A stretch of 64,000 nucleotides of DNA, taken from positions 62,001 to 126,000 of the forward strand of contig NZ_LMNA01000009.1 in NCBI RefSeq assembly GCF_001422445.1, written 5' to 3'. The position numbers were made by a program, and so were the translations under genes. Positions 6,708-55,504 of the stretch are shown piece after piece (the first letter of the stretch is position 1; each line of letters starts with the position of its first letter). Under the pieces are notes generated by a model, which made no database searches, had not been told where the DNA came from, and saw only the letters and a program-made list of their open reading frames with translations. This stretch comes from Pseudorhodoferax sp. Leaf274. GTDB taxonomy: Bacteria; Pseudomonadota; Gammaproteobacteria; Burkholderiales; Burkholderiaceae_C.

Positions 6708-7000
6708 GTACGGGTGCGCGGCGGCGTCAGCCGTACGCCACGCATCGCGCCGCCTGCCTCTGCAGCAGTTCGCATCCTGGACCGCGCACGCGGGCGCTTG
6801 ACGCAGCCGTTGCACCGCGGCCAGCACGGTCTTGCGCATGCCGCGCGCCATGTCGCTGAAGGCCCATGGGCCTGCCTTCGTCCAGGCGGCATGGACCAGC
6901 GCCGGCACCCACAGGCGACGCACGGATTGCACGCAAACAACAGCAAAGACCATCGCATGAGCCAATGGATGCAATGACTGCATGCATTCATGCCCATACC

Positions 7001-7020
7001 TGATAACACAGCGGTTACCA
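7001..7020. promoter_or_regulatory. Operator-like inverted repeat 1 of the alpha-glucoside operon
   Basis: TGATAAC and GTTACCA form seven-base arms around six bases, with one mismatch. The half-site TGGTAAC resembles those used by LacI-family sugar repressors. No LacI gene lies in this window, so the regulator is unknown. Confidence 0.45.
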
Positions 7021-7023
7021 GGG

Positions 7024-7047
7024 AAAACGATTGCATTCCATCGTTTT
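7024..7047. promoter_or_regulatory. Operator-like inverted repeat 2 of the alpha-glucoside operon
   Basis: AAAACGAT (7024-7031) and ATCGTTTT (7040-7047) are perfect eight-base arms around TGCATTCC. The site sits four bases after the first repeat and about 75 bases before the binding-protein start, overlapping where a promoter is expected. Perfect symmetry in AT-rich arms within a high-GC genome makes chance less likely. Binding by a LacI-type repressor is inference. Confidence 0.5.
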
Positions 7048-7120
7048 GCTTTGAACACAATTTAACGATCCGCCGGAGAGACCGACGAACGCACACAAAA
7101 CCACACGAGGGGAACCATCC

Positions 7121-8389
7121 GTGAAAGCCATCAGAACGACCTGCCTTGCCGCCGCCACCCTGGGCCTCGCCTGGTCGGCAGCCCAGGCCGGCGTGACCGT
7201 CACCGTGTCCTGCGGCACGGTCGGGCAGGACTTAGAGTTCTGCAAGAAAGCCACCGACGAGTGGAGCAAGAAGACCGGCAACACGGTCAAGCACCTGACC
7301 ATTCCGCAGTCCACCTCGGACATCCTGGGCCTGTTTCGCCAGATGTTCGCGGCCAAGTCCAGCGACGTGGACGTGGTCTCCGTCGACGTGGTCTGGCCCA
7401 GCTCCATCAAGGCGCACCTGCTCGATCTCGGCCCCTACGCCAAGGGCGCCGAGAAGAACCACTTCCCGGCCATCGTGGCGAACAACACCGTCGATGGGCA
7501 GTTGCTTGCCATGCCCTGGTTCACCGACGCAGGCGTCCTGTACTACCGCAAGGATCTGCTCGAGAAATACGGCGAGAAGCCGCCCACCACCTGGGACGAA
7601 CTCACCGCGACGGCCAGGAAGGTCATGGACGGCGAGCGCAAGTCAGGCAACGCCGACATGCAGGGTTACGTGTTCCAGGGCAAGGCCTACGAAGGCCTGA
7701 CCTGCAATGCGCTGGAATGGGTGGCCAGCTACGGCGGCGGCTCCATCGTCGATGCCAAGGGCGACATCACCATCAACAACCCGCAGGCTGCCAAGGCGCT
7801 CACCACGGCCGCCGGCTGGATCGGCACCATCGCGCCCACCGGCGTGCTGAACTACGGCGAGGAAGACGCGCGCGGCGTGTTCCAGAAAGGCAACTCGGTC
7901 TTCATGCGCAACTGGCCCTACGCCTGGTCGCTGAGCCAGGGCGCCGACAGCCCGGTCAAGGGCAAGGTCGGCGTGGTCAACCTGCCCAAGGGCGGCGATG
8001 GCAAGCCGGCGGCCACGCTGGGCGGCTGGCAGCTGTCGGTCGTCAAGTACTCCAAGAACCCGGCCGTGGCGGCCGATCTGGTCATGTACCTGACCAGCCC
8101 CGAAGTGCAGAAGGACCGCGCGATCAAGGGCTCGTACAACCCCACCATCCCCGCGCTCTACAAGGACGCCGACGTGATCGCGGCCAACCCCTTCTTCGGC
8201 ACGCTGTACGAGACCTTCGTCACCGCCGTGCCGCGCCCGGCCACCGCCACGGGGGCGAAGTACAACGAGGTTTCAGCCGCGTTCTGGAACGCATCGCACA
8301 GCGTGCTTTCCGGCAACGCCAAGGCCGACGACGCGCTGGCCAAGCTCGACGGCCGCATCAAGACCATCCGCCGCGGCCCCAAGTGGTGA
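7121..8389 (+). CDS. Periplasmic sugar-binding protein of a trehalose/maltose-type ABC importer (ThuE-like)
   Basis: Solute-binding protein of the family-1 carbohydrate class (422 residues, GTG start behind GAGGGG). A Sec signal peptide (K-A-I-R-T then a hydrophobic run ending A-Q-A-G) covers about the first 23 residues. The mature N-terminus, T-V-S-C-G-T-V-G-Q-D-L-E-F-C-K, and the stretch A-A-K-S-S-D-V-D-V-V-S-V-D-V-V-W-P resemble ThuE of rhizobia, which binds trehalose, maltose and sucrose. It is the first gene of the operon, usual for the most abundant component; a strong hairpin after its stop (8403-8426) may stabilise its message. The exact sugar cannot be read from sequence. Confidence 0.85.
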   Translation: MKAIRTTCLAAATLGLAWSAAQAGVTVTVSCGTVGQDLEFCKKATDEWSKKTGNTVKHLTIPQSTSDILGLFRQMFAAKSSDVDVVSVDVVWPSSIKAHLLDLGPYAKGAEKNHFPAIVANNTVDGQLLAMPWFTDAGVLYYRKDLLEKYGEKPPTTWDELTATARKVMDGERKSGNADMQGYVFQGKAYEGLTCNALEWVASYGGGSIVDAKGDITINNPQAAKALTTAAGWIGTIAPTGVLNYGEEDARGVFQKGNSVFMRNWPYAWSLSQGADSPVKGKVGVVNLPKGGDGKPAATLGGWQLSVVKYSKNPAVAADLVMYLTSPEVQKDRAIKGSYNPTIPALYKDADVIAANPFFGTLYETFVTAVPRPATATGAKYNEVSAAFWNASHSVLSGNAKADDALAKLDGRIKTIRRGPKW

Positions 8390-8402
8390 GCCCGGCCTGA
8401 GC

Positions 8403-8426
8403 GCGGCGGCGGTCGCCCGCCGCCGC
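8403..8426 (+). other. Strong intercistronic hairpin after the binding-protein gene
   Basis: GCGGCGGCGG (8403-8412) and CCGCCGCCGC (8417-8426) form a perfect ten-base-pair GC stem with a TCGC loop. No T-run follows and the operon continues, so it is more likely a processing or 3'-protecting element, or a partial attenuator, than a full terminator. Binding-protein genes at operon heads often have such structures. Confidence 0.5.
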
Positions 8427-8514
8427 AACCCACCACCCCAAGCGTTCCCTGCAAGCCGGCCATGGCCGGCGGGCGGAGCGCGCGCACCCGTCTTCTTTTC
8501 CAGCAGGACATCCC

Positions 8515-9453
8515 ATGAGCAGCCCGACTTCCGCGCTGACACGCGAGCGCACACGCAGCGCCTGGATCTTTCTCGCACCCACGGTCACCGTGCTGCTGCT
8601 GGTGGCGGGCTGGCCCCTGGGCCGCACGATCTGGTTCAGCTTCACCGACGCCAGCCTGGACACCATCGGCAGCGCCAGTTACCAGTGGGTCGGCTTCGCC
8701 AACTACTTCGGCGAGTACGGCGTCTTCAACTTCGGCGCGGCCGAGGGCTTCTGGCGCACCGACTGGGGCAAGGCGATCCTCAACACCTTCAAGTTCGCCA
8801 CCGTCTCGGTGGTGCTGGAGACGGTGCTGGGCGTGGTCTTCGCGCTGGTGCTCAACGCCAACTTCAAGGGCCGCGCTTTCGTGCGTGCGGCGGTGCTGGT
8901 GCCCTGGGCGATCCCCACCATCGTCTCGGCCAAGATGTGGGCCTGGATCATGCACGACCAGTTCGGCGTGCTGAACGCCATGCTCAAGACCTGGGGCGTG
9001 ATCGACAGCAACATCGCATGGACGGCCGACCCGGCCTACGCGCTGTGGTCCGTGGTGCTGGTGGACGTGTGGAAGACCACGCCCTTCATGACGCTGCTGA
9101 CGCTGGCCGCGCTGCAGATGCTGCCGCGCGACTGCTACGAGGCCGCCCATGTGGATGGCATCCACCCGGTCAAGGTCTTCTTCAAGGTCACGCTGCCGCT
9201 GATCTGGCCGGCGCTGATGGTGGCCGTCATCTTCCGCCTGCTCGATGCACTGCGCGTGTTCGACATCATCTACGTGATGACGTCCAACAGCGTGGACACG
9301 ATCAGCATGTCTGGCTTCGTGCGCCGCGAGATCGTGGACAACAACTACGTGGGCTACGGGTCGGCCGCCTCCACCGTGCTGTTCCTGATCATCGGCGCCT
9401 GCACGCTGCTGTACCTCAAGCTCTCGCGCGTCGACCTCGGCGGCAAGAAGTGA
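8515..9453 (+). CDS. Sugar ABC transporter permease, MalF/ThuF-like
   Basis: Inner-membrane permease of 312 residues with about six hydrophobic segments. The first begins at W-I-F-L-A-P-T-V-T-V-L-L-L near residue 15. The cytoplasmic EAA loop that docks the ATPase is visible as E-A-A-H-V-D-G-I-H-P-V-K-V-F-F-K-V-T-L-P around residues 210-230. ATG 8515 is 125 bases after the binding-protein stop and gives a short N-terminal tail before the first membrane helix. It pairs with the next permease to form the channel. Confidence 0.9.
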   Translation: MSSPTSALTRERTRSAWIFLAPTVTVLLLVAGWPLGRTIWFSFTDASLDTIGSASYQWVGFANYFGEYGVFNFGAAEGFWRTDWGKAILNTFKFATVSVVLETVLGVVFALVLNANFKGRAFVRAAVLVPWAIPTIVSAKMWAWIMHDQFGVLNAMLKTWGVIDSNIAWTADPAYALWSVVLVDVWKTTPFMTLLTLAALQMLPRDCYEAAHVDGIHPVKVFFKVTLPLIWPALMVAVIFRLLDALRVFDIIYVMTSNSVDTISMSGFVRREIVDNNYVGYGSAASTVLFLIIGACTLLYLKLSRVDLGGKK

Positions 9454-9463
9454 GGAGCGCGCG

Positions 9464-10309
<846 letters not shown>

Positions 10310-10315
10310 CGCGCC

Positions 10316-11965
10316 ATGACCGCAACTTCCAACCACGACTGGTGGCGCGGCGGCGTGATCTACCAGGTCTACCCGCGCAGCTTTGCCGACAGCAACGGCG
10401 ACGGCATCGGCGATCTTCCCGGCATCACGGCCCGGCTCGAGCACATCGCCCGCCTGGGCGCCGATGCGGTCTGGCTGTCGCCCTTCTTCACGAGCCCGCA
10501 GAAGGACTTCGGCTACGACGTGAGCGACTACCGCGGCGTCGACCCGATGTTCGGCCAGCTTGCCGACTTCGACGCCCTGGTGGCGCGCGCGCATGCGCTG
10601 GGCCTGAAGGTCATGATCGACCAGGTGCTCTCGCACACCTCGGACCAGCACGCCTGGTTCGGCGAGAGCCGCGCCAGCCGCGACAACCCCAAGGCCGACT
10701 GGTACGTGTGGGCCGATGCGAAGCACGACGGCACGCCACCCAACAACTGGCTCAGCGTGTTCGGCGGCAGCGCCTGGCAGTGGGACACGCGGCGCTGCCA
10801 GTACTACCTGCACAACTTTCTGGCCAGCCAGCCCGACCTGAACGTGCTGAACCCGGCGGTGCAGGACGCGCTGCTCGGCGAGATGCGCTTCTGGCTCGAC
10901 CGCGGCGTGGACGGCTACCGGCTGGACGCCATCAACTTCTGCTGCCACGACGCACAGCTGCGCGACAACCCCGGCCGCGGCGCGCCCGCGCACGTGGACC
11001 CCACGGCACCGGCCGCCAACCCGTATTCGTGGCAGGTCCATGAATTCGACAAGAGCCGGCCCGAGGCCCTGGCCTTCCTGCGCCGCCTGCGCGCGCTGGT
11101 GGACGCATACCCCGGCACCGCCATGGTCGGCGAGATCGGCGACGAGCGCGGCCTGGCGCTGATGGCCGCCTACACCGGCGGTGGCGACAAGCTGCACATG
11201 GCCTACTGCTTCGACCTGCTGGGCCCGCAGTACGACGCCGGCTACCTGCATGCGTTGCTGGCCCAGTCGCTGGACACACTGGGCGACGGCTGGCCCTGCT
11301 GGGCCATCTCCAACCACGACAGCGTGCGCGTGGCCACGCGCTGGGGCGGTGCACGGCCCGATCCGGCGCTGCTGCGCCAGGCCGCCGCGCTGCTGCTGAC
11401 GCTGCGCGGCAGCGCCTGCCTCTACCAGGGCGAGGAACTCGGCCTGCCCGAGGCCGACATCGCCTTCGACGACCTGCAGGACCCCTACGGCATCGCCATG
11501 TGGCCCGAGTTCAAGGGCCGCGACGGCTGCCGCACGCCCATGGCCTGGCAGGCCGATGCGCCCGACCTGGGCTTCGGCAGCGGCGCCGCACGGCCCTGGC
11601 TGCCGCTGGCCGCCGGACACCGTGCGCTGGCCGCCGACCGCCAGTGGGCCGACGACGGCGCGCTGCTGCACCACTACCGCCGCCTGCTGCAGTGGCGCCG
11701 TGCGCAACCGGCGCTGCGCCAGGGTTCGATGGCCTTGCTGCCGCGCCAGGGCCAGGTGCTGGCCTTCGAACGCGCGCACGCCGGCCAGCGCCTGCTGTGC
11801 GTGTTCAACCTCGGTGCGCAGAGTGCCCGCTTCGCCTTGCCCGGCGAAGGCTGGACGCCGGACGCCGGTGCGCCTGCGCAGCCGCCCGGCCTGCGCAGCG
11901 GGCAGGGCGCGCTGCTGCTGCCGCCGCACGGCACCGCCTTCCTCACCTTGCCCTCCCAGACCTGA
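10316..11965 (+). CDS. GH13 alpha-glucosidase (AglA-like)
   Basis: Cytoplasmic alpha-glucosidase of 549 residues that hydrolyses imported alpha-glucosides to glucose. It has the GH13 (beta/alpha)8 signatures in order: W-W-R-G-G-V-I-Y-Q-V-Y-P-R-S-F at the start, nucleophile D204 in D-G-Y-R-L-D-A-I-N, acid/base E273 in M-V-G-E-I-G-D-E, and the stabilising D335 in S-N-H-D-S-V-R. The N-terminus closely matches rhizobial AglA, and the order binding protein-permease-permease-glucosidase-ATPase is that of aglEFGAK. No signal peptide. It lies between permease and ATPase genes with a seven-base gap before it and a 13-base gap after it. Confidence 0.9.
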   Translation: MTATSNHDWWRGGVIYQVYPRSFADSNGDGIGDLPGITARLEHIARLGADAVWLSPFFTSPQKDFGYDVSDYRGVDPMFGQLADFDALVARAHALGLKVMIDQVLSHTSDQHAWFGESRASRDNPKADWYVWADAKHDGTPPNNWLSVFGGSAWQWDTRRCQYYLHNFLASQPDLNVLNPAVQDALLGEMRFWLDRGVDGYRLDAINFCCHDAQLRDNPGRGAPAHVDPTAPAANPYSWQVHEFDKSRPEALAFLRRLRALVDAYPGTAMVGEIGDERGLALMAAYTGGGDKLHMAYCFDLLGPQYDAGYLHALLAQSLDTLGDGWPCWAISNHDSVRVATRWGGARPDPALLRQAAALLLTLRGSACLYQGEELGLPEADIAFDDLQDPYGIAMWPEFKGRDGCRTPMAWQADAPDLGFGSGAARPWLPLAAGHRALAADRQWADDGALLHHYRRLLQWRRAQPALRQGSMALLPRQGQVLAFERAHAGQRLLCVFNLGAQSARFALPGEGWTPDAGAPAQPPGLRSGQGALLLPPHGTAFLTLPSQT

Positions 11966-11978
11966 CAGGAGAAGAACC

Positions 11979-13169
<1,191 letters not shown>

Positions 13170-13230
13170 GCCTCCACACACCGCCGTCCGTCCTGCCGCG
13201 GCGCCGCGCGCCGCTTTTCGATTCCGCTCC

Positions 13231-15687
13231 ATGACCCGCATTTCTTCCGCTGCGCTCGGCGTGGCACCCTGGTGCCTGCACGAAACCCGGTTCGACCCCG
13301 ATCGCGCCGGCCTGCACGAAACCCTGTTCTGCCTGGGCAACGGCCGCATCGGCCTGCGCGGCGCGCACGAGGAGGGCAGCGCCTGGCCGGGCACCGACCA
13401 GGACGCGACCTACCTCAACGGCTTCCACGACGTGGCCGACATCGCCTACGCCGAGAACGCCTACGGTCTGGCCCGGCTGCACCAGTTCATCGTCGCCGTG
13501 CCCAACGGCAAGGCCGTGGCATGGCAGATCGACGGCGAACCGTTCGACCCCGCCAGCGGCCAGATCGAGGACTACGCCCGCGAACTCGACCTGCGCAACG
13601 GACTGCTGACGCGCCGCTTCGTCTGGGTCTCTCCACGCGGACGGCGCGTGGCCGTGCACAGCACCCGGCTCGTCAGCCTGGAGCGCGACGCGGTCTGCGC
13701 GCTGCGCTATGAACTCCAGGTGCTCGACGGCCCGGCCCACATCGCCATCGAGTCCTTCATCGATGCCCGGGCCCACGACATGGAGGCCAGCGACGATCCG
13801 CGCGCCGGGTCCGCCCACGCCGCCAAGTCGCTGGTCGAGGTCTCGGCCGAGCGGCACGGTCCGCAGGTGCTGCTGGTGCACCGCACCAAGCGCAGCGCGA
13901 TGCAGGTGGCCAGCGCGCTGCACAGCCTGGCCTGGCATGCCGGCCAGGGGCCCATCGCCGCGCAGGACGCCGGCACCGCCGCCTGCCTGGGCCACCGCTT
14001 CGAGGCCGAGCTGCGGCAGCACGAAACCTTGCGGCTGGACAAGGTCTTCGGCCTCATGGGCTCGCACCACGCGCCGGCCGAAGACCTGCCGGCCTTGCTG
14101 GGCCGCGCCGTCGAGCAGGCGGTGGAGGCCGGCTTCGAGCAGCTGTGCGCGGAGCAGGCGGCCTACCTCGCACGCTACTGGCAGGACGCCGATGTCGTGA
14201 TCGAGGGCGACGATGCGCTGCAGCAGGGCATGCGCTTCAACCAGCTGCACCTGCTGCAGTCGGTCGGCCGCGACGGCCGCACCAACATCGCCGCCAAGGG
14301 CGTCACCGGGAGCGGCTACGACGGCCACTACTTCTGGGACACCGAGATCTACGTGCTGCCCATGCTGCTGCACACGCAGCCGCAGATCGCGCGCCGGCTG
14401 CTCGAGTTCCGCTACCACACGCTGGACGCGGCGCGCGCGCGGGCACGCGAGATGGCCCACGCGCAAGGGGCGCTGTTCCCCTGGCGCACCATCGACGGGC
14501 CCGAGTGCTCCTCGTACTTCCCGGCCGGCACGGCGCAGTACCACATCAATGCCGACATCGCGTTCGCGGTCAAGCGCTACTGGGACGTGACCGGCGACGA
14601 CGCCTTCATGCTGGACCACGGCGCCGAACTGGTGTTCGAGACCGCGCGCATCTGGATGGGCCTGGGCCACTACCAGCAAGGCCGCTTCGAGGACGGCAGC
14701 ACGCGCCGCTACTGCATCCACACCGTGACCGGCCCGGACGAATACACGGCGCTGGTGGACAACAACTTCTACACCAACGCGATGGCCCAGATGCACCTGG
14801 GCTTCGCCGCCGAACTGGTGCAGTGGCTCGCGCAGCAGCATGCCGGCCAGTTGCTGAAGCTGCAGCTGCGCATCGGCCTGGACCTGCGCGAGGCCGAGAC
14901 CTGGCAGGAGGCCGCGCGCCACATGTACCTGCCCTACGACGAGCGGCTCGGCGTGCACCCGCAGGACGACGGCTTCCTGGCCAAGCCGCGTTGGCCCTTC
15001 GACGGCGGCAACGACGCCCCCAAGCGCCCGCTGCTGCTGCACTACCACCCGCTGGTGATCTACCGCCACCAGATCTGCAAGCAGGCCGACGTGCTGCTGG
15101 CCCTGCTGCTGCTGGGCGAGCAGTTCCGCCAGGACGACAAGCGGCGCGACTTCGACTACTACGAGGCCATCACCACGCACGACTCCTCGCTGTCGCGCTG
15201 CATCTTCGGAATCATCGCCTCGGAGGTCGGCTACGCCGGGAAGGCCTACGCCTACTTTGCCGAGGGCGTGCGCACCGACCTGGACGACCACCACCGCAAC
15301 ACCCGCCACGGCGTGCACACCGCGGCCATGGCCGGCGCCTGGCTGGGCGTGGTGGCGGGCTTCGCCGGCCTGCGCATGCGCCGGCGCATGCCCACCTTCT
15401 GGCCCACGCTGCCGGCCGGCTGGCGCCGCTACAGCTTCAAGTTGCGGGTGGCCGGCGCACAGCTGGAGCTCGACATCGACGCCGAGCGCTGCACCTACCG
15501 GCTGCTCGCCGGCGACTGGCTGGCATTCCGGCATGGCGGGCAGACCGTGGTGCTGGGCGGGGAGCAGCGCGAGACCACGCTGGCGCTGCCGACTCCGGCC
15601 GCAGCGTCCGCCGAACCGCCCGCCGCCGCGACCGCCCCATCCGCACTGGCCGCCCCGTCCGCCGCTGCGCACGCCGCCTTCCCGTGA
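13231..15687 (+). CDS. GH65 disaccharide phosphorylase (trehalose/maltose/kojibiose type)
   Basis: Cytoplasmic glycoside hydrolase family 65 enzyme (818 residues) expected to cleave an alpha-glucosidic disaccharide with phosphate into beta-glucose-1-phosphate and glucose. The N-terminal beta-sandwich begins with E-T-L-F-C-L-G-N-G-R-I-G-L-R-G. The (alpha/alpha)6 core carries G-Y-D-G-H-Y-F-W-D-T-E and the general acid E504 in T-G-P-D-E-Y-T. Phosphate-site residues are consistent with a phosphorylase, and the adjacent beta-phosphoglucomutase supports this. Linkage specificity (alpha-1,1, 1,4 or 1,2) cannot be assigned. The last 35 residues are a Pro/Ala-rich tail outside the domain. Confidence 0.88.
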   Translation: MTRISSAALGVAPWCLHETRFDPDRAGLHETLFCLGNGRIGLRGAHEEGSAWPGTDQDATYLNGFHDVADIAYAENAYGLARLHQFIVAVPNGKAVAWQIDGEPFDPASGQIEDYARELDLRNGLLTRRFVWVSPRGRRVAVHSTRLVSLERDAVCALRYELQVLDGPAHIAIESFIDARAHDMEASDDPRAGSAHAAKSLVEVSAERHGPQVLLVHRTKRSAMQVASALHSLAWHAGQGPIAAQDAGTAACLGHRFEAELRQHETLRLDKVFGLMGSHHAPAEDLPALLGRAVEQAVEAGFEQLCAEQAAYLARYWQDADVVIEGDDALQQGMRFNQLHLLQSVGRDGRTNIAAKGVTGSGYDGHYFWDTEIYVLPMLLHTQPQIARRLLEFRYHTLDAARARAREMAHAQGALFPWRTIDGPECSSYFPAGTAQYHINADIAFAVKRYWDVTGDDAFMLDHGAELVFETARIWMGLGHYQQGRFEDGSTRRYCIHTVTGPDEYTALVDNNFYTNAMAQMHLGFAAELVQWLAQQHAGQLLKLQLRIGLDLREAETWQEAARHMYLPYDERLGVHPQDDGFLAKPRWPFDGGNDAPKRPLLLHYHPLVIYRHQICKQADVLLALLLLGEQFRQDDKRRDFDYYEAITTHDSSLSRCIFGIIASEVGYAGKAYAYFAEGVRTDLDDHHRNTRHGVHTAAMAGAWLGVVAGFAGLRMRRRMPTFWPTLPAGWRRYSFKLRVAGAQLELDIDAERCTYRLLAGDWLAFRHGGQTVVLGGEQRETTLALPTPAAASAEPPAAATAPSALAAPSAAAHAAFP

Positions 15688-16367
15688 CCCAACCGCCCGC
15701 CCCCACCGTGACCCGCTCCCGCCATTTCTCGCACGCCTTCATCTTCGACCTGGACGGTGTGCTCACCGACACCGCCCGCCAGCACCTGGCCGCCTGGGGC
15801 GCGCTCGCGCGGATGCTGCAGCTGCCATTCGACGCGGCCATGGAGGAGCAACTGCGCGGCCTGTCGCGCATGGACTCGCTGGAACACGTGCTGGGCCCGG
15901 CCGCCGGCCGCTTCAGCGCGGAACGCAAGCAGGCGCTGGCCGAGCACAAGAACGCCGCCTATGTCGACGCCATCGCCGGGCTGACGCCCGCCGACCTGCT
16001 GCCGGGCGCCCTGGCCGCGCTGCAGGCCGTGCGTGCGGGTGGCTGGGGCCTGGCGCTCGCGTCGGCCAGCCGCAATGCGCCCACGGTGCTCGCCCGGCTG
16101 GGCGTCGCTCCTCTGTTCGACCACGTCGTCGACCCGGCCAGCGTCGCGCACGGCAAGCCGGCGCCGGACATCTTCCTGGCGGCGGCGCAGGCATTGAACG
16201 TCGCGCCCGCGCACTGCGTGGGCATTGAGGACGCCGCTGCCGGCATCCAGGCCATCCGTGGCGCCGGGATGTTCGCCGTGGGCATCGGCAGCCCGCAGGT
16301 GCTGCGCGGCGCCGACCTGGTGCTGCCCGACCTGCTCGGCCTGCAGCCCGGCCTGTACCTGCGCTGA
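15684..16367 (+). CDS. pgmB: Beta-phosphoglucomutase
   Basis: HAD-superfamily mutase of 227 residues converting beta-D-glucose-1-phosphate to glucose-6-phosphate. Nucleophile D22 and acid/base D24 lie in F-I-F-D-L-D-G-V-L-T-D. The following helical cap, A-S-A-S-R-N-A, the lysine in H-G-K-P-A-P-D and G-I-E-D-A-A-A-G match PgmB. The start is one of two GTG codons: 15684, whose GTGA overlaps the GH65 stop, or 15708. I use 15684 because of coupling, which adds eight weakly conserved residues. Its place right after a GH65 phosphorylase is the classic pairing. Confidence 0.9.
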   Translation: MTQPPAPTVTRSRHFSHAFIFDLDGVLTDTARQHLAAWGALARMLQLPFDAAMEEQLRGLSRMDSLEHVLGPAAGRFSAERKQALAEHKNAAYVDAIAGLTPADLLPGALAALQAVRAGGWGLALASASRNAPTVLARLGVAPLFDHVVDPASVAHGKPAPDIFLAAAQALNVAPAHCVGIEDAAAGIQAIRGAGMFAVGIGSPQVLRGADLVLPDLLGLQPGLYLR

Positions 16368-16463
16368 AGCCCCCCGCGGGCCACAGCCCATCGATTTCCA
16401 GGCCTGCCGGCCCTGGCGCGCAAGCCGGCACTTTCCACCACGAAGACCCCAGAGGAGAACCAC

Positions 16464-17735
16464 ATGACAACCCACCACCCGACCCGGCTCGCCGCCGCCA
16501 TCGCCGCGCTGCTGCTGGGCAGCCAGCCGGTGCTGGCGCAGGACCAGGCCGCCGACCCCACCCGCGATTTCGTCAAGAAGGTCAGCGATGCCACCGGCCT
16601 GGAGTTCTGGGGCTACGCCCGCAGCGGCTTCTACAGCGGCAACAAGGACCAGGGCCGCCTGCGCGGCAATTACTCGCTGGGCGGCGATCTTCAGAAGTAC
16701 CGCCTGGGCAACGAGGGCGACCACTACATCGAGTTCGGCATCGGCAAGCGCTTCGACCTGGGCGACGGCGGGAAGTGGGGCGTGTTCTACCAGCCCAAGA
16801 TCTACAACGGCGACACCGGCACGGCCCAGGCCTACGCCACGATGACCGGCATCTTCGGCAACAGCGCCACGCTGTGGGCCGGCCAGCGCTTCCACCGCAT
16901 CCAGGACGTGCACATCGTCGACAACTGGGTGATGGAAGACGGCGACAACTACGGCGCCGGCGTGGACGACATCCCGCTCTTCGGCGTGGGCACGCTGAAC
17001 GTGGCGCTGTACAACTCCGACTCTTTCGACAACAAGGCCGGCAACCCGAACAACGCGCACCGCCTGAACCTGCAATGGCGCAAGATCCCGACCAACCCCG
17101 GGGGCTCGATCACCGTGACCGGCGCGCTGGTCAACGGCGACTTCGCGCGGGGCAGCGACGGCGGCGCGCTGGGCATCGTGCACAACCAGAAGGACTTCCT
17201 GGTCAAGGGCCTGAACAATTCGCTGATGCTGCAGGCCTCCAACGGCCATGCGGACATCCGCGGCAAGTTCTACGGCCTGGACGATGCGGCCGGCACCCCC
17301 AGCGCCGGCGCCCGGCAGCGCCGCATCCTGGACACGGTCGACTTCCAGATCGGCAAGCTCGGCGGCCAGGCCCTGATCGGCTACCAGACCCTCAAACCCG
17401 ACCAGGGCCTGGAGCAGAAGGACTTCAGCCTCGGCGGCCGCCTGACCTACGGCATCGCCCCGCGCACCAAGCTGATCGGCGAAGTGGCCACCACCAGCCG
17501 CAAGATGGACGGCGGCGAGACCCAACGCCTGAACAAGGGCACCATGGCCGTGGCGTTCTCGCCCAACACCGACTTCTGGACCCGTCCGGAATTCCGCGTG
17601 TACTACACCCACGCCAACTGGAACTCGGCCGCAGCCGCTGCCCACTCGGATCCCGCCAACGGCCCCGCCTACGGCATCAACGACAAGCGCAGCAACAACA
17701 CCTTCGGCGTGCAGATGGAAGTCTGGTGGGAGTGA
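16464..17735 (+). CDS. LamB-type carbohydrate outer-membrane porin
   Basis: Outer-membrane maltoporin-family protein of 423 residues. The signal peptide is about residues 1-26, ending V-L-A-Q. The mature start F-W-G-Y-A-R-S-G-F-Y matches LamB's first strand; alternating beta-strand patterns follow, with loop cysteines absent, and the protein ends V-Q-M-E-V-W-W-E, close to the aromatic terminal strand of LamB. The ATG follows AGAGGAGAACCAC. As last gene of the alpha-glucoside operon it probably admits the disaccharide to the periplasm. A long hairpin follows (17738-17783). Confidence 0.88.
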   Translation: MTTHHPTRLAAAIAALLLGSQPVLAQDQAADPTRDFVKKVSDATGLEFWGYARSGFYSGNKDQGRLRGNYSLGGDLQKYRLGNEGDHYIEFGIGKRFDLGDGGKWGVFYQPKIYNGDTGTAQAYATMTGIFGNSATLWAGQRFHRIQDVHIVDNWVMEDGDNYGAGVDDIPLFGVGTLNVALYNSDSFDNKAGNPNNAHRLNLQWRKIPTNPGGSITVTGALVNGDFARGSDGGALGIVHNQKDFLVKGLNNSLMLQASNGHADIRGKFYGLDDAAGTPSAGARQRRILDTVDFQIGKLGGQALIGYQTLKPDQGLEQKDFSLGGRLTYGIAPRTKLIGEVATTSRKMDGGETQRLNKGTMAVAFSPNTDFWTRPEFRVYYTHANWNSAAAAAHSDPANGPAYGINDKRSNNTFGVQMEVWWE

Positions 17736-17737
17736 GC

Positions 17738-17783
17738 CACGGGCACAGGCGTGCCGCCGCGGGCATGGGCGGCGGTGCCCGTG
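17738..17783 (+). terminator. Hairpin at the end of the alpha-glucoside operon
   Basis: CACGGGCAC (17738-17746) pairs perfectly with GTGCCCGTG (17775-17783), and inner CCGCC/GGCGG bases extend the stem. It begins two bases after the porin stop. There is no clear T-tract, so termination may need Rho or the hairpin may mainly protect the 3' end. Confidence 0.5.
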
Positions 17784-20810: not shown

Positions 20811-20894
20811 CACGACCCCCACGCTCATCGCTTCGCGTATCGCTGCCCCCCGAGGGGGCGCGTCAGTGCCTTCGGGCGGCCGGGCGCCACTGAC
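20811..20894 (+). repeat. Intercistronic GC-rich repeat, copy A (ruvX-pyrR)
   Basis: The gap contains CCCCCCGAGGGGG (a small hairpin) followed by TTCGGGCGGCCGGGCGCC. The order and bases match the plus-strand sequence at 55432-55504 and, more weakly, 58295-58367. Here the repeat runs in the direction of transcription and ends at the pyrR ATG; there is no good Shine-Dalgarno sequence. It fills the whole 84 bases between the genes. Confidence 0.6.
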
Positions 20895-35371: not shown

Positions 35372-36508
35372 ATGAACTTCACACACACCGAAGACCGCCG
35401 CATGCTGGCGGACTCGCTGGACCGCTACCTGGCCGAGCAGTACGGCTTCGTCGAACGCGACCACATCGCCTGGAGCGCGCAAGGCACGAGCGACAAGCAC
35501 TGGAACCAGCTGGCCGAGATCGGCGCGTTGGGCGCGCTGTTCCCCGAGTCCGTGGGTGGCTTCGGCGGCAGCGGCTTCGACGTGGCCGTGGTCTTCGAGA
35601 GCCTGGGCAAGGGCCTCGTGGTCGAGCCCTTCCTGGGCGCGCTCGTGGTCGGCCGCGCCATCGCGCAGGCGGGCACCGCAGTGCAACAGGAACGCATCGC
35701 CGGCCTCGTGAACGGCAGCACCGTGGCCGCGCTCGCGCACGACGAACCCGGCTCGCACTACGAGCCCACGCTGGTCGCCACGCGCGCCGAAAAGAACGCC
35801 AATGGCTGGGTGCTGAACGGCGCCAAGGCCGTGGTGCAGCAAGGCCAGCGCGCCGCTCTGTTGCTGGTCTCCGCGCGCACGTCCGGCAACACGGGCGATG
35901 CGCAGGGCATCTCGCTTTTCCTGGTGCCTGGCGATGCCGAGGGCATCGCCCGTCGCGATTACCCGAAGATCGACGGTGGCCGCGCGGCCGAACTCACGCT
36001 GCAGAACGTGCAGGTCGGCGCCGATGCGCTGCTGGGCACCGAAGGCGCCGGCGCGGACGTGCTGGAACACGCCACGGGCTGGGGCCTCCTGGCCCTGGCG
36101 GCCGAGTCGCTGGGCGCAATGGAAGTGGCCAAGCGCGACACGCTGGAATACCTGCGCACGCGCAAGCAGTTCGGCGTGCCGATCGGCAGCTTCCAGGCGC
36201 TGCAGCACCGCATGGCCGACCTGCTGATCGAAGTGGAGCAGGCGCGCTCGGCCGTCATCAACGCGGCCGCCGCGATCGACGGCGACAACCGCATCGCGCG
36301 CGAGCGTGCGCTGTCGGCCGCCAAGTTCAGCGTGGGCCAGATCGGCACGCGCGTGGCCGAGGAGGCCATCCAGCTGCACGGCGGCATCGGCATGACCTGG
36401 GAACTGCCGCTGGCGCACTACGCCAAACGCCTCGTGATGATCGACCACCAGTTGGGGGACGAGGACTTCCATCTGCAGCGCTACATCGATCTGGGACGCG
36501 CTACGTGA
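35372..36508 (+). CDS. Acyl-CoA dehydrogenase, pimeloyl-CoA dehydrogenase small-subunit type
   Basis: Second dehydrogenase of 378 residues, starting 16 bases after the large subunit. M-N-F-T-H-T-E-D-R-R-M-L-A-D-S-L-D-R-Y opens it. R-K-Q-F-G-V-P-I-G-S-F-Q-A-L-Q-H-R-M-A-D and Q-L-H-G-G-I-G-M-T-W-E are the flavin-domain signatures. The mid-domain S-E-P motif seen in the partner is degenerate here (H-D-E-P-G-S), as in PimD-type subunits. The likely job is the first oxidation in degrading a dicarboxylyl-CoA. A long near-palindrome begins 24 bases after the stop. Confidence 0.87.
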   Translation: MNFTHTEDRRMLADSLDRYLAEQYGFVERDHIAWSAQGTSDKHWNQLAEIGALGALFPESVGGFGGSGFDVAVVFESLGKGLVVEPFLGALVVGRAIAQAGTAVQQERIAGLVNGSTVAALAHDEPGSHYEPTLVATRAEKNANGWVLNGAKAVVQQGQRAALLLVSARTSGNTGDAQGISLFLVPGDAEGIARRDYPKIDGGRAAELTLQNVQVGADALLGTEGAGADVLEHATGWGLLALAAESLGAMEVAKRDTLEYLRTRKQFGVPIGSFQALQHRMADLLIEVEQARSAVINAAAAIDGDNRIARERALSAAKFSVGQIGTRVAEEAIQLHGGIGMTWELPLAHYAKRLVMIDHQLGDEDFHLQRYIDLGRAT

Positions 36509-36531
36509 ATGGCTTGTGGGTTGTAGGGAGC

Positions 36532-36903
36532 GCCCAGGCGGCGGCAGCGTGCCTGCGTTCTCCAGCCCACGCTCGCGGAAGCCGGCAGTGGCTTGCAACC
36601 CGCACGCCCTCGAACGCCGGATGTGCGTCAGCTGGGCATCTCGCCGTCGCGAATGGGGCCTGCGCCCGCAGGCCCACTACCACCGCCCGACACGACGGTG
36701 TCGCGCCAGCGCGGACGCGCCGGTCGTGCGCCCTCGCACCCACGCGACGTGAGGCGGGTGGTGCTGACATGCGGGCGCAGGGGCCATTCGCGGCCCAGAG
36801 ATGCCCAGCACGCCACGCCATCGGCGAGAGTGCACAGCGTGCTGGAGCCACCAACGGCGCCCGCGAGCGTGCCCCGGAGAACGCGTGTCGGCGCCGCCTG
36901 CCG
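36532..36903. repeat. Long imperfect inverted repeat (~180-base arms)
   Basis: Nearly all of the 449-base gap between the dehydrogenase and the enoyl-CoA hydratase is one large palindrome centred near 36720. Left-arm landmarks GCGTTCTCC (36555-36563), CACGCTCGCGG (from 36569), GCTGGGCATCTC (36631-36642) and CCTGCGCCCGCA recur inverted in the right arm (for example GAGATGCCCAGC at 36798-36809 and GGAGAACGC at 36876-36884). By eye the arms agree at roughly three quarters of positions with a few small indels. Several short frames cross it on both strands but they mirror each other and look like repeat artefacts. It could be two head-to-head copies of one element, a MITE-like insertion, or a large RNA hairpin. 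Confidence 0.8.
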
Positions 36904-36957
36904 TTTTGGGCCGCAGCACCCGCGCGACTGAACTAACGAACAAACACCGGAGCAAAG

Positions 36958-37755
36958 ATGACCAACGAAGCCCTGCTCACGCGCCGCGAAGGCGCCGTGC
37001 TCATCCTCGTCAACAACAACCCCGCCGCCCGCAACGCGCTGTCGGCCGAGTTCTACACGGCCGCCACGCAAGCCCTGGCCGATGCCGAAGCCGACCCCAC
37101 CATCGGCGCCGTGGTGCTGACCGGCGCCGGCAACTTCTTCTGCGCAGGCGGCAACCTCAACCAGCTGGTCACGCGCCGCGAGATGGCGCCTGCCGAGCGC
37201 CGCGAGCGCCTGGAGCTGCTGCACGGCTTCGTGCGCCGGCTGCGTGACAGCGGCAAGCCCGTCATCGCGGCCGTCGAGGGCGGCGCGGCCGGTGCCGGCC
37301 TGTCGGTGGCGCTGGCCTGCGACCTGCTGGTGTCCTCGCGCGAGGCCTTCTTCAGCGCCACCTACATCAAGGTGGGCCTCACGCCCGATGGCGGGCTGAC
37401 CTCGTTCCTGGCCGAGTTCGTCTCGCGCCAGCTGCTGACCGAGCTGTGCCTGACCGGCGAGCGCGTCACGGCCGAACGCCTGCACGCGCTGGGCGCCGTC
37501 AACCGCCTGGTCGACGCCGGCCAGGCCGAGGCACAGGCCATTGCGCTCGGCGCGCAACTGGCCCAGGGCCCGGCCCGCGCCAGCGCGCGCATCAAGGCGC
37601 TGTGCCGCGGCGCGCACGCGCGCACGCTGGACGAACAGCTGGAGCGCGAAGCCGTGTCCATGGTCGAAAGCCAGGGCGACGACGAAGCGCAGGAGGGCAT
37701 CAAAGCCTTCCTTGGCAAGCGCCAAGCGGACTTCGCCGCGCTGCGCCGACGCTGA
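36958..37755 (+). CDS. Enoyl-CoA hydratase/isomerase family protein
   Basis: Crotonase-fold enzyme of 265 residues. Oxyanion loop residues lie in F-F-C-A-G-G-N-L-N-Q-L near residue 62 and V-E-G-G-A-A-G-A-G-L-S near residue 107. Y-I-K-V-G-L-T-P-D-G-G-L-T has D where dehydrating hydratases carry Glu, so it may be an isomerase or act on an unusual acyl-CoA. ATG 36958 follows CGGAGCAAAG. It lies downstream of the palindrome and just before a CaiB-type transferase; whether it belongs to the upstream operon depends on what the palindrome does. Confidence 0.88.
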   Translation: MTNEALLTRREGAVLILVNNNPAARNALSAEFYTAATQALADAEADPTIGAVVLTGAGNFFCAGGNLNQLVTRREMAPAERRERLELLHGFVRRLRDSGKPVIAAVEGGAAGAGLSVALACDLLVSSREAFFSATYIKVGLTPDGGLTSFLAEFVSRQLLTELCLTGERVTAERLHALGAVNRLVDAGQAEAQAIALGAQLAQGPARASARIKALCRGAHARTLDEQLEREAVSMVESQGDDEAQEGIKAFLGKRQADFAALRRR

Positions 37756-50259: not shown

Positions 50260-51383
50260 CGCCAGAAGACCTCCCGCTGCACGGCCTGACCGTGCTCGAC
50301 CTCTCCCAGGGCATCGCCGGCCCGCACTGCGGCCTGCTGCTGCGCCAGCAGGGCGCGCGCGTGATCAAGGTCGAGCCGCCGCACGGCGACTGGAGCCGCC
50401 AGATGGGCCGCGCGCGCGCCGGCCACACCGCGATCTCGATCGCCTACAACCTGGGCAAGGAAAGCGTGGTGCTGGACACGCGCACCGAAGCCGGCCGCGC
50501 TGCCCTGCGCCAGCTCGCCGCACAGGCCGATGTGGTCGTGCAGAACTACCGCCCCGGCGTGGTCGAGCGCATGGGCGTGGGCTATGCCGAACTCGCGGCG
50601 CAGCGGCCGGACCTGGTCTACGTGTCGATCTCGGGCCACGGCGCGACCGGCCCCGACGCCCAGCTGCCCGCGCTGGACACCACCATGCAGGCCGCCACCG
50701 GCCTCATGCACCTGAACCGCGACGCCACGGGCGCGCCGCGCCGCATCGGCCTGTTCCTGGTCGACATCGCCACTGGCCTGCAGGCCGCGCAGAACGCCAT
50801 GGCCGCGCTGGTGCGTGCCGCGCGCACGGGCCAGGGCCGGCATGTGCAGGTCTCGATGCTGGAGACCGCCGCCGCGCTGCAAAGCTACCTGGTGCTGGAC
50901 GCCGCGATGTTTCCAGAAGCCGAGGCCGTGGCCTTCAACGTGCCGACCGGCCTGTTCCGCGCCAGCGACGGCCACCTGTACGTGAGCATGCTGGACGACG
51001 CCATGTTCCGCCGCCTGGCCGAGGCGCTGGACCGCGCCGACTGGCTGGCCGATCCCGACCTGGCCACGAGCGCAGGCCGCATCCCGCGCGCGTTGGAACT
51101 CAACGGCGCGCTGGCCACCCAGCTCGCCACGCAGACCGTGGCCGACTGGGAGGCCCTGCTGCGCCGCCACGACGTGCTGCACGCGCGCGCCGCGCGGCCG
51201 CAGGACCTGCCGCAGAGCGCGCAGGCAAGGCATGCAGGCGTGTTCGCGGCGCTGGAGGTGCCGGGCCTGGGCACGCTGGACTGGCCCAACATGCCGGGCC
51301 AGGCGGGCCGCGCTGCGCCAGGAGAAGCGCCGCTGCTGGGCCAGCACACGCAGGCCGTGCTGGCGGAGTTCGGCGCAGCCTAG
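50256..51383 (+). CDS. CaiB/BaiF family CoA-transferase, second
   Basis: Class III transferase of 375 residues. L-T-V-L-D-L-S-Q-G-I-A-G-P-H-C-G-L, A-R-V-I-K-V-E-P-P-H-G-D-W and Y-N-L-G-K-E-S-V-V-L-D open it; L-D-T-T-M-Q-A-A-T-G-L carries the region of the catalytic Asp near residue 147. It differs clearly from the 37791 copy. Likely gives CoA to the acid bound by the Bug receptor, with the quinone reductase as a later step. The stop overlaps the convergent alcohol dehydrogenase stop. Confidence 0.88.
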   Translation: MTPEDLPLHGLTVLDLSQGIAGPHCGLLLRQQGARVIKVEPPHGDWSRQMGRARAGHTAISIAYNLGKESVVLDTRTEAGRAALRQLAAQADVVVQNYRPGVVERMGVGYAELAAQRPDLVYVSISGHGATGPDAQLPALDTTMQAATGLMHLNRDATGAPRRIGLFLVDIATGLQAAQNAMAALVRAARTGQGRHVQVSMLETAAALQSYLVLDAAMFPEAEAVAFNVPTGLFRASDGHLYVSMLDDAMFRRLAEALDRADWLADPDLATSAGRIPRALELNGALATQLATQTVADWEALLRRHDVLHARAARPQDLPQSAQARHAGVFAALEVPGLGTLDWPNMPGQAGRAAPGEAPLLGQHTQAVLAEFGAA

Positions 51384-55431: not shown

Positions 55432-55504
55432 TGGTGCCCCCTTCGGCCTGCGGCCTGTCCCCCCGTGGGGGAGCGAGCTTGCTTGGGGCGGCCCGGCGCG
55501 GCGC
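55432..55504 (-). repeat. Intercistronic GC-rich repeat, copy B (cstA-ybdD)
   Basis: A 73-base gap bounded by the cstA stop and the ybdD start. In gene direction it begins at the stop codon with GCGCCGCGCCGGGCCGCCCC, has a small CTCCCCCACGGGGGG hairpin and ends GGCCGAAGGGGGCACCA before the ATG. Copy C (58295-58367) has the same length, aligns without gaps, and agrees at roughly three quarters of positions. Copy A (20811-20894) shares the hairpin and the GGGCGGCC end. Confidence 0.65.

Follow-up and report, generated by a model that had tools for sequence, protein, structure and literature searches.

The locus considered here raises the question of what kind of element a near-palindrome of about 370 bases is, and how it came to lie inside a run of beta-oxidation genes. 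The stretch that we analysed (the window: 64,000 nucleotides, C9:62001-126000 of a 6.74-Mb genome, G000, in 30 contigs) carries it between two codirectional genes. A preliminary description, made from the letters alone, saw two arms of about 180 bases meeting near 36720, perhaps two head-to-head copies of a mobile or REP-like unit or a MITE, which as RNA would form one very long hairpin. The arms are present, with their junction near 36720. By BLAST within the genome, 36555-36884 matches its own reverse complement at 70% over 330 bp, and the landmarks first picked out fall in two inverted pairs, 36631-36687 with 36753-36809 (I1, 75% identity) and 36555-36593 with 36846-36884 (I2, 79%). When the left half was aligned locally to the reverse complement of the right, the score was 75, against a mean of 22.1 (sd 3.3, maximum 35) in 200 shuffles preserving dinucleotides. 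The transcript of 36509-36957 is predicted to fold with a z of -6.54, and 0 of 100 shuffles were equally stable.

Upstream lies an acyl-CoA dehydrogenase gene (35372-36508, + strand), whose best NCBIfam model is the PimD small subunit at 340 bits, under the cut-off of 652.7; the nearest among the named relatives of its product point to Variovorax, the best at 83% protein identity. Downstream lies a gene of the enoyl-CoA hydratase family (36958-37755, + strand), over the cut-off of NF005700. The gap between the two genes spans 36509-36957, beyond the 36532-36903 first given for the repeat. The extent of the repeat also needed adjusting: the part common to the full copies in this genome, defined by comparing them, runs over 36530-36930 (+ strand). 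The core common to other genera, set by a family profile, covers about 36536-36906 (+). On either side are a left spacer (36509-36529, +), non-homologous to the spacers of other copies, and an A-rich leader of the downstream gene (36931-36957, +; read from the sequence), which is non-homologous to their leaders and contains a Shine-Dalgarno-like GGAG at 36949-36952. The upstream gene ends in GTGA (36505-36508, +; stop TGA at 36506-36508), where five relatives of the genus have a single shared ATGA. No intrinsic terminator or promoter-like site was found inside the repeat, and the sole terminator-like site found lies in the downstream gene on the opposite strand.

A search for further copies returned eight copies or remnants by BLAST, the window copy on C9 included. 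Three others are full: C26a (C26:63513-63906, 84%), C12 (C12:429430-429828, 80%) and C10b (C10:25471-25862, 81%). Among the remnants, C10a (C10:18285-18481) keeps the right half, C26c (C26:231936-232196) is 72% identical, and C26b (C26:165287-165486) and C7 (C7:38309-38485) have lost the middle. The two pieces of C26b share 8 bases of overlap (165347-165354), suggesting that the middle was lost between short direct repeats. Searched with up to 3 mismatches across this genome, a right-end pattern occurred at 7 sites and an inner-arm pattern at 6, all within known copies. The palindrome itself is uneven among copies: the other three full ones scored 39, 41 and 55 as inverted repeats where their best shuffles reached 38, 37 and 33, which leaves two of them only just above chance, and mirror-symmetric conservation of the arms among the copies of this genome is weak (r 0.27, reached by 15 of 157 circular shifts).

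The full copies also bear on whether the locus is a short protein gene, with a 143-codon frame (36505-36936) translated across it. The same + frame is stop-free in 4 of 4 full copies, yet other frames are open too, variable sites are spread evenly over the codon positions (0.34, 0.29, 0.35), there is no Pfam match and the frame is absent from relatives, and we consider a coding function very improbable.

The preliminary description proposed comparing filled with empty sites, and at C9, C12, C26b and C10b the repeat proved absent from the orthologous gaps of genus relatives. The window site is empty in 5 of 5 other genus genomes, where one overlapping ATGA joins the two genes. The C12 site, flanked by genes for two permeases of an ABC transporter (the downstream gene resembling UrtC/LivM, under the models' cut-offs), is empty in 5 of 5, with ATGA. 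At C26b, 4 of 4 relatives that have the locus are empty (3 ATGA, 1 GTGA), the fifth genome giving weak matches only, and at C10b all five are empty by coordinates, with TGAGCATG in the four read. The C10a site is ATGA in G002, G004 and G005, with other inserts at the same position in G003 and G001; C7 corresponds to a 7-8-nt gap in G001, G004 and G005 and to longer unrelated spacers in G002 and G003. Two sites were compared with G003 only: at C26a it has ATGA plus a different insert about 100 bp upstream, and at C26c it has two convergent genes ending one base apart. By this site-by-site comparison, 6 of the 8 copies occupy junctions of codirectional genes at which stop and start overlap or nearly do, and the filled and empty sites place the insertion in the lineage of this genome.

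The first reading had also noted no obvious target duplications. We too found none at the repeat itself; the whole insert, however, has ATGA on both sides at 4 of the 8 sites (C12, C26a, C26b, C10b), and GTGA and ATGA at C9. The stretches between these flanks and the repeat are non-homologous among copies. The left one at C10b is a family C repeat (one copy and a part; this family is described below), so that insert is composite.

Beyond this genome, at least 13 of 398 other genomes of the bacterial family match the repeat at E 1e-5 (14 of 399 with this one, in 9 of 141 genera, its own included), counts that are lower bounds, only two candidates having been scored per genome. Matches over 100 bp are 65-74% identical and shorter ones up to 97%. 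We had first considered the family species-specific, as suggested by 0 of 59 relatives matching at E 1e-6 and no exact match of a 21-base pattern in genome contigs; given the 13 matching genomes, and since an exact pattern is too narrow for distant members, we dropped that reading. Within the genus, copies were found in this genome alone when the five others were searched at E 0.01: two gave no match, and three gave one each, of 31-55 bp (E 0.002-0.009), taken as chance. The family-wide profile found no copy in 760 kb of G003, nor in 80 regions from named relatives. All 20 of the distant regions around survey matches also match a profile of the copies from this genome, and in 17 of them (not L286, L294 or L300) an inverted repeat across the arms reaches at least 45 bits; L284 and L295 have arms of 154 and 178 bp with about 200 and 300 bp between them. 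Plasmid and phage collections yielded no copy. Viral contigs gave two pattern matches, L043 and L303; L043 matched neither a covariance model nor the family profile and was rejected as a viral homologue. By a crude gene call from codon-position GC, the distant copies are intergenic in 20 of 20 cases and adjoin the 3' end of a flanking gene in 17, L286 and L287 lying between divergent genes and L285 at a contig end. Their gaps to genes are 29-561 bp, plus one of 1,123 bp, and siting at overlaps is therefore a trait of this genome and not of the whole repeat family. Judged by these matches, the family is patchily distributed in the bacterial family to which this genome belongs.

The distant copies made it possible to ask which structure has been conserved. 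Alignment A3 holds 17 copies (4 from this genome, 13 distant) from 8 genera; seven of the 20 distant regions (L284, L285, L286, L294, L295, L299, L300) were left out for a long central insert, truncation or partial match. Nearly all of its 73 invariant columns fall inside four boxes, whose consensus sequences across the 17 copies align as one motif of about 40 nt in the orientations + - + -. In the window these are the outer-left box (36543-36585, +; A3 columns 15-60), the inner-left box (36640-36683, -; columns 117-160; consensus CGCGAATGGNNCCTGCGC), the inner-right box (36752-36796, +; columns 310-354) and the outer-right box (36859-36901, -; columns 419-464). Two head-to-head copies was thus right, yet understated a build of four related boxes in alternating orientation. 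RNAalifold, supplied with no structure, predicts two hairpins in which each outer box pairs with the inner box of the same arm: hairpin 1 at 36543-36681, with a variable loop at about 36586-36639, and hairpin 2 at 36755-36900, with a variable loop at about 36797-36858.

Covariation across genera fits this two-hairpin fold only, which is where the first reading of one very long hairpin as the evolved structure gives way. In A3, 95.0% of 996 cells pair under the two-hairpin structure. Double changes occur in 23 of 60 pairs, where shuffles give 11.1, and in 68 cells, where they give 20.6; 0 of 500 shuffles reached such values. These figures carry the caveat that the alignment used to test the structure is also the one that yielded it, and that related rows share changes. 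Better controls are the structure slid by 1-3 columns, which gave at most 9 pairs and 17 cells with double changes, and a count with one row per genus (8 rows), which gave 38 cells against 11.9 in shuffles (0 of 300 as high). Written as 63 arm-to-arm pairs, the long hairpin leaves 82.7% of cells paired in A3. Its double-change cells number 13, a count that 134 of 300 shuffles equalled or passed (shuffled value 12.1); reduced to a single row for each genus they number 11 against 7.1 (16 of 300), at most weak covariation. The copies of this genome alone gave 4 double-change cells against 2.5 shuffled (108 of 500 as high) and by covariation favour neither structure. Correction of imperfect palindromes during replication could likewise produce paired changes. 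From this comparison, conservation of two hairpins, one per arm, is well supported.

Energetically, the whole fold is the stronger one. Folding the two halves separately costs 19-91 kcal/mol relative to the best whole fold in 17 of 17 copies. In the window copy that best fold is the long hairpin, a form that may therefore arise in relaxed RNA. Folding during transcription would favour separate arms.

Could the locus instead be a cis-acting operon RNA, a single long regulatory hairpin kept by selection as an RNase III substrate or attenuator and not spreading? Flanks and coding bias indicate that all eight copies in this genome are oriented like the gene whose stop precedes them, as such an RNA would be, and predicted folding is strong. 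Columns that pair in one copy's fold are also less variable among the remaining three (equalled by 0, 1, 4 and 0 of 391 circular shifts), a result that we first counted for the long hairpin and then dropped, since the conserved boxes pair in either fold. The arm-to-arm pairs do not covary, C10a, C26c and C7 are predicted to fold no better than shuffles, the operons that hold copies are unrelated and there is no Rfam match, all of which argues against this explanation and leaves it improbable.

We favour, at a probability of roughly 0.6, the reading that the window copy is a member of a non-coding, REP/BIME-like selfish repeat family with four alternating boxes and two hairpins, the long near-palindrome being a by-product of the four-box build. 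The mobile or REP-like character first proposed is upheld by the further copies in this genome and others and by the empty orthologous sites, and the description as a non-coding, mobile-type repeat with two conserved hairpins is, on comparative grounds, well supported. It most likely acts through hairpins in RNA or single-stranded DNA. Copies would multiply as small selfish elements, mobilised in trans by an enzyme, and would persist where little harm is done, mostly beside gene ends. What is an ATGA translational overlap in the relatives is, at the window site, a structured spacer of about 450 nt that has a Shine-Dalgarno-like sequence at its right end; because the overlap is replaced, the spacer should uncouple translation of the acyl-CoA dehydrogenase and enoyl-CoA hydratase genes. 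The two hairpins may also stabilise the upstream message or undergo RNase III cutting.

The other mobile explanation, that the repeat is a MITE, its arms being the terminal inverted repeats of an insertion sequence now lost or absent whose transposase moved the copies, seems to us unlikely, if less so than a cis-acting RNA. Long inverted arms, short non-coding length, sites empty in relatives and two internally deleted derivatives that retain both ends (C26b and C7) all suit it. The arms do amount to terminal inverted repeats, but the right-end and inner-arm patterns match known copies alone, so that no autonomous partner, an insertion sequence with the same ends, was seen in this genome. No constant target duplication was seen at the ends of the repeat itself; the ATGA or GTGA flanks belong to the whole insert at five sites, with non-homologous spacers between them and the repeat. 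The 8-base direct repeat at C26b would account for that deletion without a transposase.

No transposase in this genome could be tied to the repeat family. Its single Y1 transposase gene (PF01797, 38.2 bits) is IS200/RAYT-like, of 230 codons (L277, G000:C2:47173-47457, minus strand), and begins directly after a family-B-like repeat that itself follows TGATG. The 3,285-bp Y1 locus contains no match to two motifs of the window's repeat at up to 4 mismatches. The genome also holds two copies of a near-palindrome of about 700 bp with arms 76-78% identical (C10:65689-66429 and 71231-71906; L224 5689-6429 and 11231-11906), which adjoin cobalamin-type genes; BLAST between it and the window's repeat gave a 14-base match (E 0.35), taken as chance.

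Stretches of this genome were compared with G003 over 79 BLAST blocks (520,631 aligned bases), which listed 27 events under a filter that set aside any insert shorter than 40 bp and any event in which the shorter genome had over 20 bp. Insertions in intergenic regions that align badly are lost to such a filter, and tight junctions are favoured. Classed by eye, 13 of the 27 are inserts of 70-462 bp that separate codirectional genes which, in the other genome, overlap or lie a short gap apart. In this genome they lie at C12:249217, 271290, 353903 and 429400 (the last of the window's repeat family), at C26:42010, 44927, 165250 (again of that family) and 208678, and at C9:82810 (window 20811-20889) and C9:98495, the window's repeat; those in G003 correspond to C12:264398, C26:94426 and C26:95499, the last with a 12-nt gap. 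Two events lie between convergent genes (C26:231921, of the window's repeat family, and C12:159592) and one follows a terminator-like stretch (C12:268369); C12:149548 fell into no class, and the ten that remain are gene insertions, changes within coding sequence or unclear cases. A crude gene call on G003 put 111 of 760 kb in non-genic sequence and counted 64 overlaps shorter than 60 bp among 379 codirectional pairs, so overlap codons are a small target. Larger differences from G003 were also seen in the window: about 11 kb at about 6727-17776 where G003 has under 100 bp between flanking BLAST blocks, and, at about 51374-51378, about 11.8 kb of G003 missing between adjoining blocks. Lineage-specific inserts at C26:122578-123367 and, in G003, at the position of C12:292792 resemble small toxin-antitoxin-type pairs by eye.

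Three other repeat families, A to C, were met in the genus, and BLAST found no match between the window's repeat and examples of any of them. The family A motif, GCCGGGCCGCCCCAAG, has 27 matches in 898 kb at up to 2 mismatches, and a TGA-type junction motif lies within 24 bp upstream in 13 of these and in 6 of 14 in G003. One family A repeat in the window (about 55433-55482, minus strand) sits between ATGA and CAATGA; G003 has a counterpart at the corresponding place, so this copy predates the split from G003. A 79-bp palindromic family B repeat at window 20811-20889, between codirectional genes, has ATGA on both sides where G003 has a single shared ATGA. Family C occurs at L023 10010-10170 (C10 of this genome) and, in G003, at the position of C12:264398 and at the C10a site; it is bounded by ATGA, with a GGAGGT-like sequence before the ATGA at its right end, and at C10b the window's repeat sits within a second, partial family C copy.

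Other palindromic repeats of the genus at stop/start overlaps thus often have ATG or TGA on both sides, and it is possible, though we hold this tentatively, that several palindromic repeats, unrelated to one another, insert preferentially at such overlaps. Each insert would leave a stop TGA at its left end and bring or keep an ATG at its right end, often preceded by a Shine-Dalgarno-like stretch; both reading frames would survive, and a hairpin spacer would replace translational coupling. If the pattern is true, it gives selfish repeats a route into operons with both genes intact, and if the Y1 (RAYT-like) transposase recognises ATG(A), the repeats would form a class adapted to entering operons without breaking them. 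The clean filled and empty sites suit tests of the effect of a repeat on translational coupling inside an operon.

The preliminary description knew no named element that matched, and none was found here either: in the portions of the literature searched, those of PMC2267715 included, we recognised no description of this repeat or of repeats sited at ATGA overlaps. As a patchy, structurally conserved family of unusual build, with four alternating boxes and two hairpins, it adds to the small palindromic repeats of bacteria. As described in the parts of the sources drawn on, it is most like REP and BIME elements (PMC2817692, PMC3733652) in its short palindromic units of alternating orientation, its non-coding nature and its place mostly beside gene 3' ends; the one RAYT-like Y1 gene in this genome is a further likeness to REP/BIME with RAYT. 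It differs from those descriptions in having boxes of about 40 nt in a fixed set of four over about 370-400 bp, and few copies (8). Set beside the palindromic unit of 20-40 bp that makes up a REP, each box here is close in size at about 40 nt, but the palindrome takes two boxes, which form one hairpin. The GTAG/CGTC tag of REPs is not among the 73 invariant columns of the 17 copies, and although a GTAG directly precedes the window copy on its left, the other full copies lack it. Nor was a linked RAYT gene flanked by copies found in this genome. The units alternate as in a BIME (+ - + -) but are not REPs, and for want of the tag and of a linked transposase we do not file the repeat as REP.

Among other systems, as the excerpts consulted describe them, YPAL/RU-2 and ERIC (PMC2229807, PMC10969869) are likewise palindromic intergenic repeats with filled and empty sites, and are co-transcribed with upstream genes, and the target duplications reported for YPAL vary in size from 3 to 26 bp (PMC2229807); they differ in being 127-168 bp long and enterobacterial. 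BRE, a GC-rich and possibly mobile intergenic repeat of Bordetella and Comamonadaceae, resembles ours in kind but is described as about 90 bp long and often tandem (PMC3110155), and might rather correspond to the short repeat families A to C. The TIR repeats associated with TIRYTs are long, partly self-complementary inverted-repeat families in genomes with Y1 transposases, and in that they are similar; they flank the transposase gene (PMC3733652), whereas the window's repeat was not seen at the Y1 gene of this genome. That source also reports that frames beside GTAG REPs often take their TAG stop from the ends of the repeat, which parallels the stop/start pattern described here.
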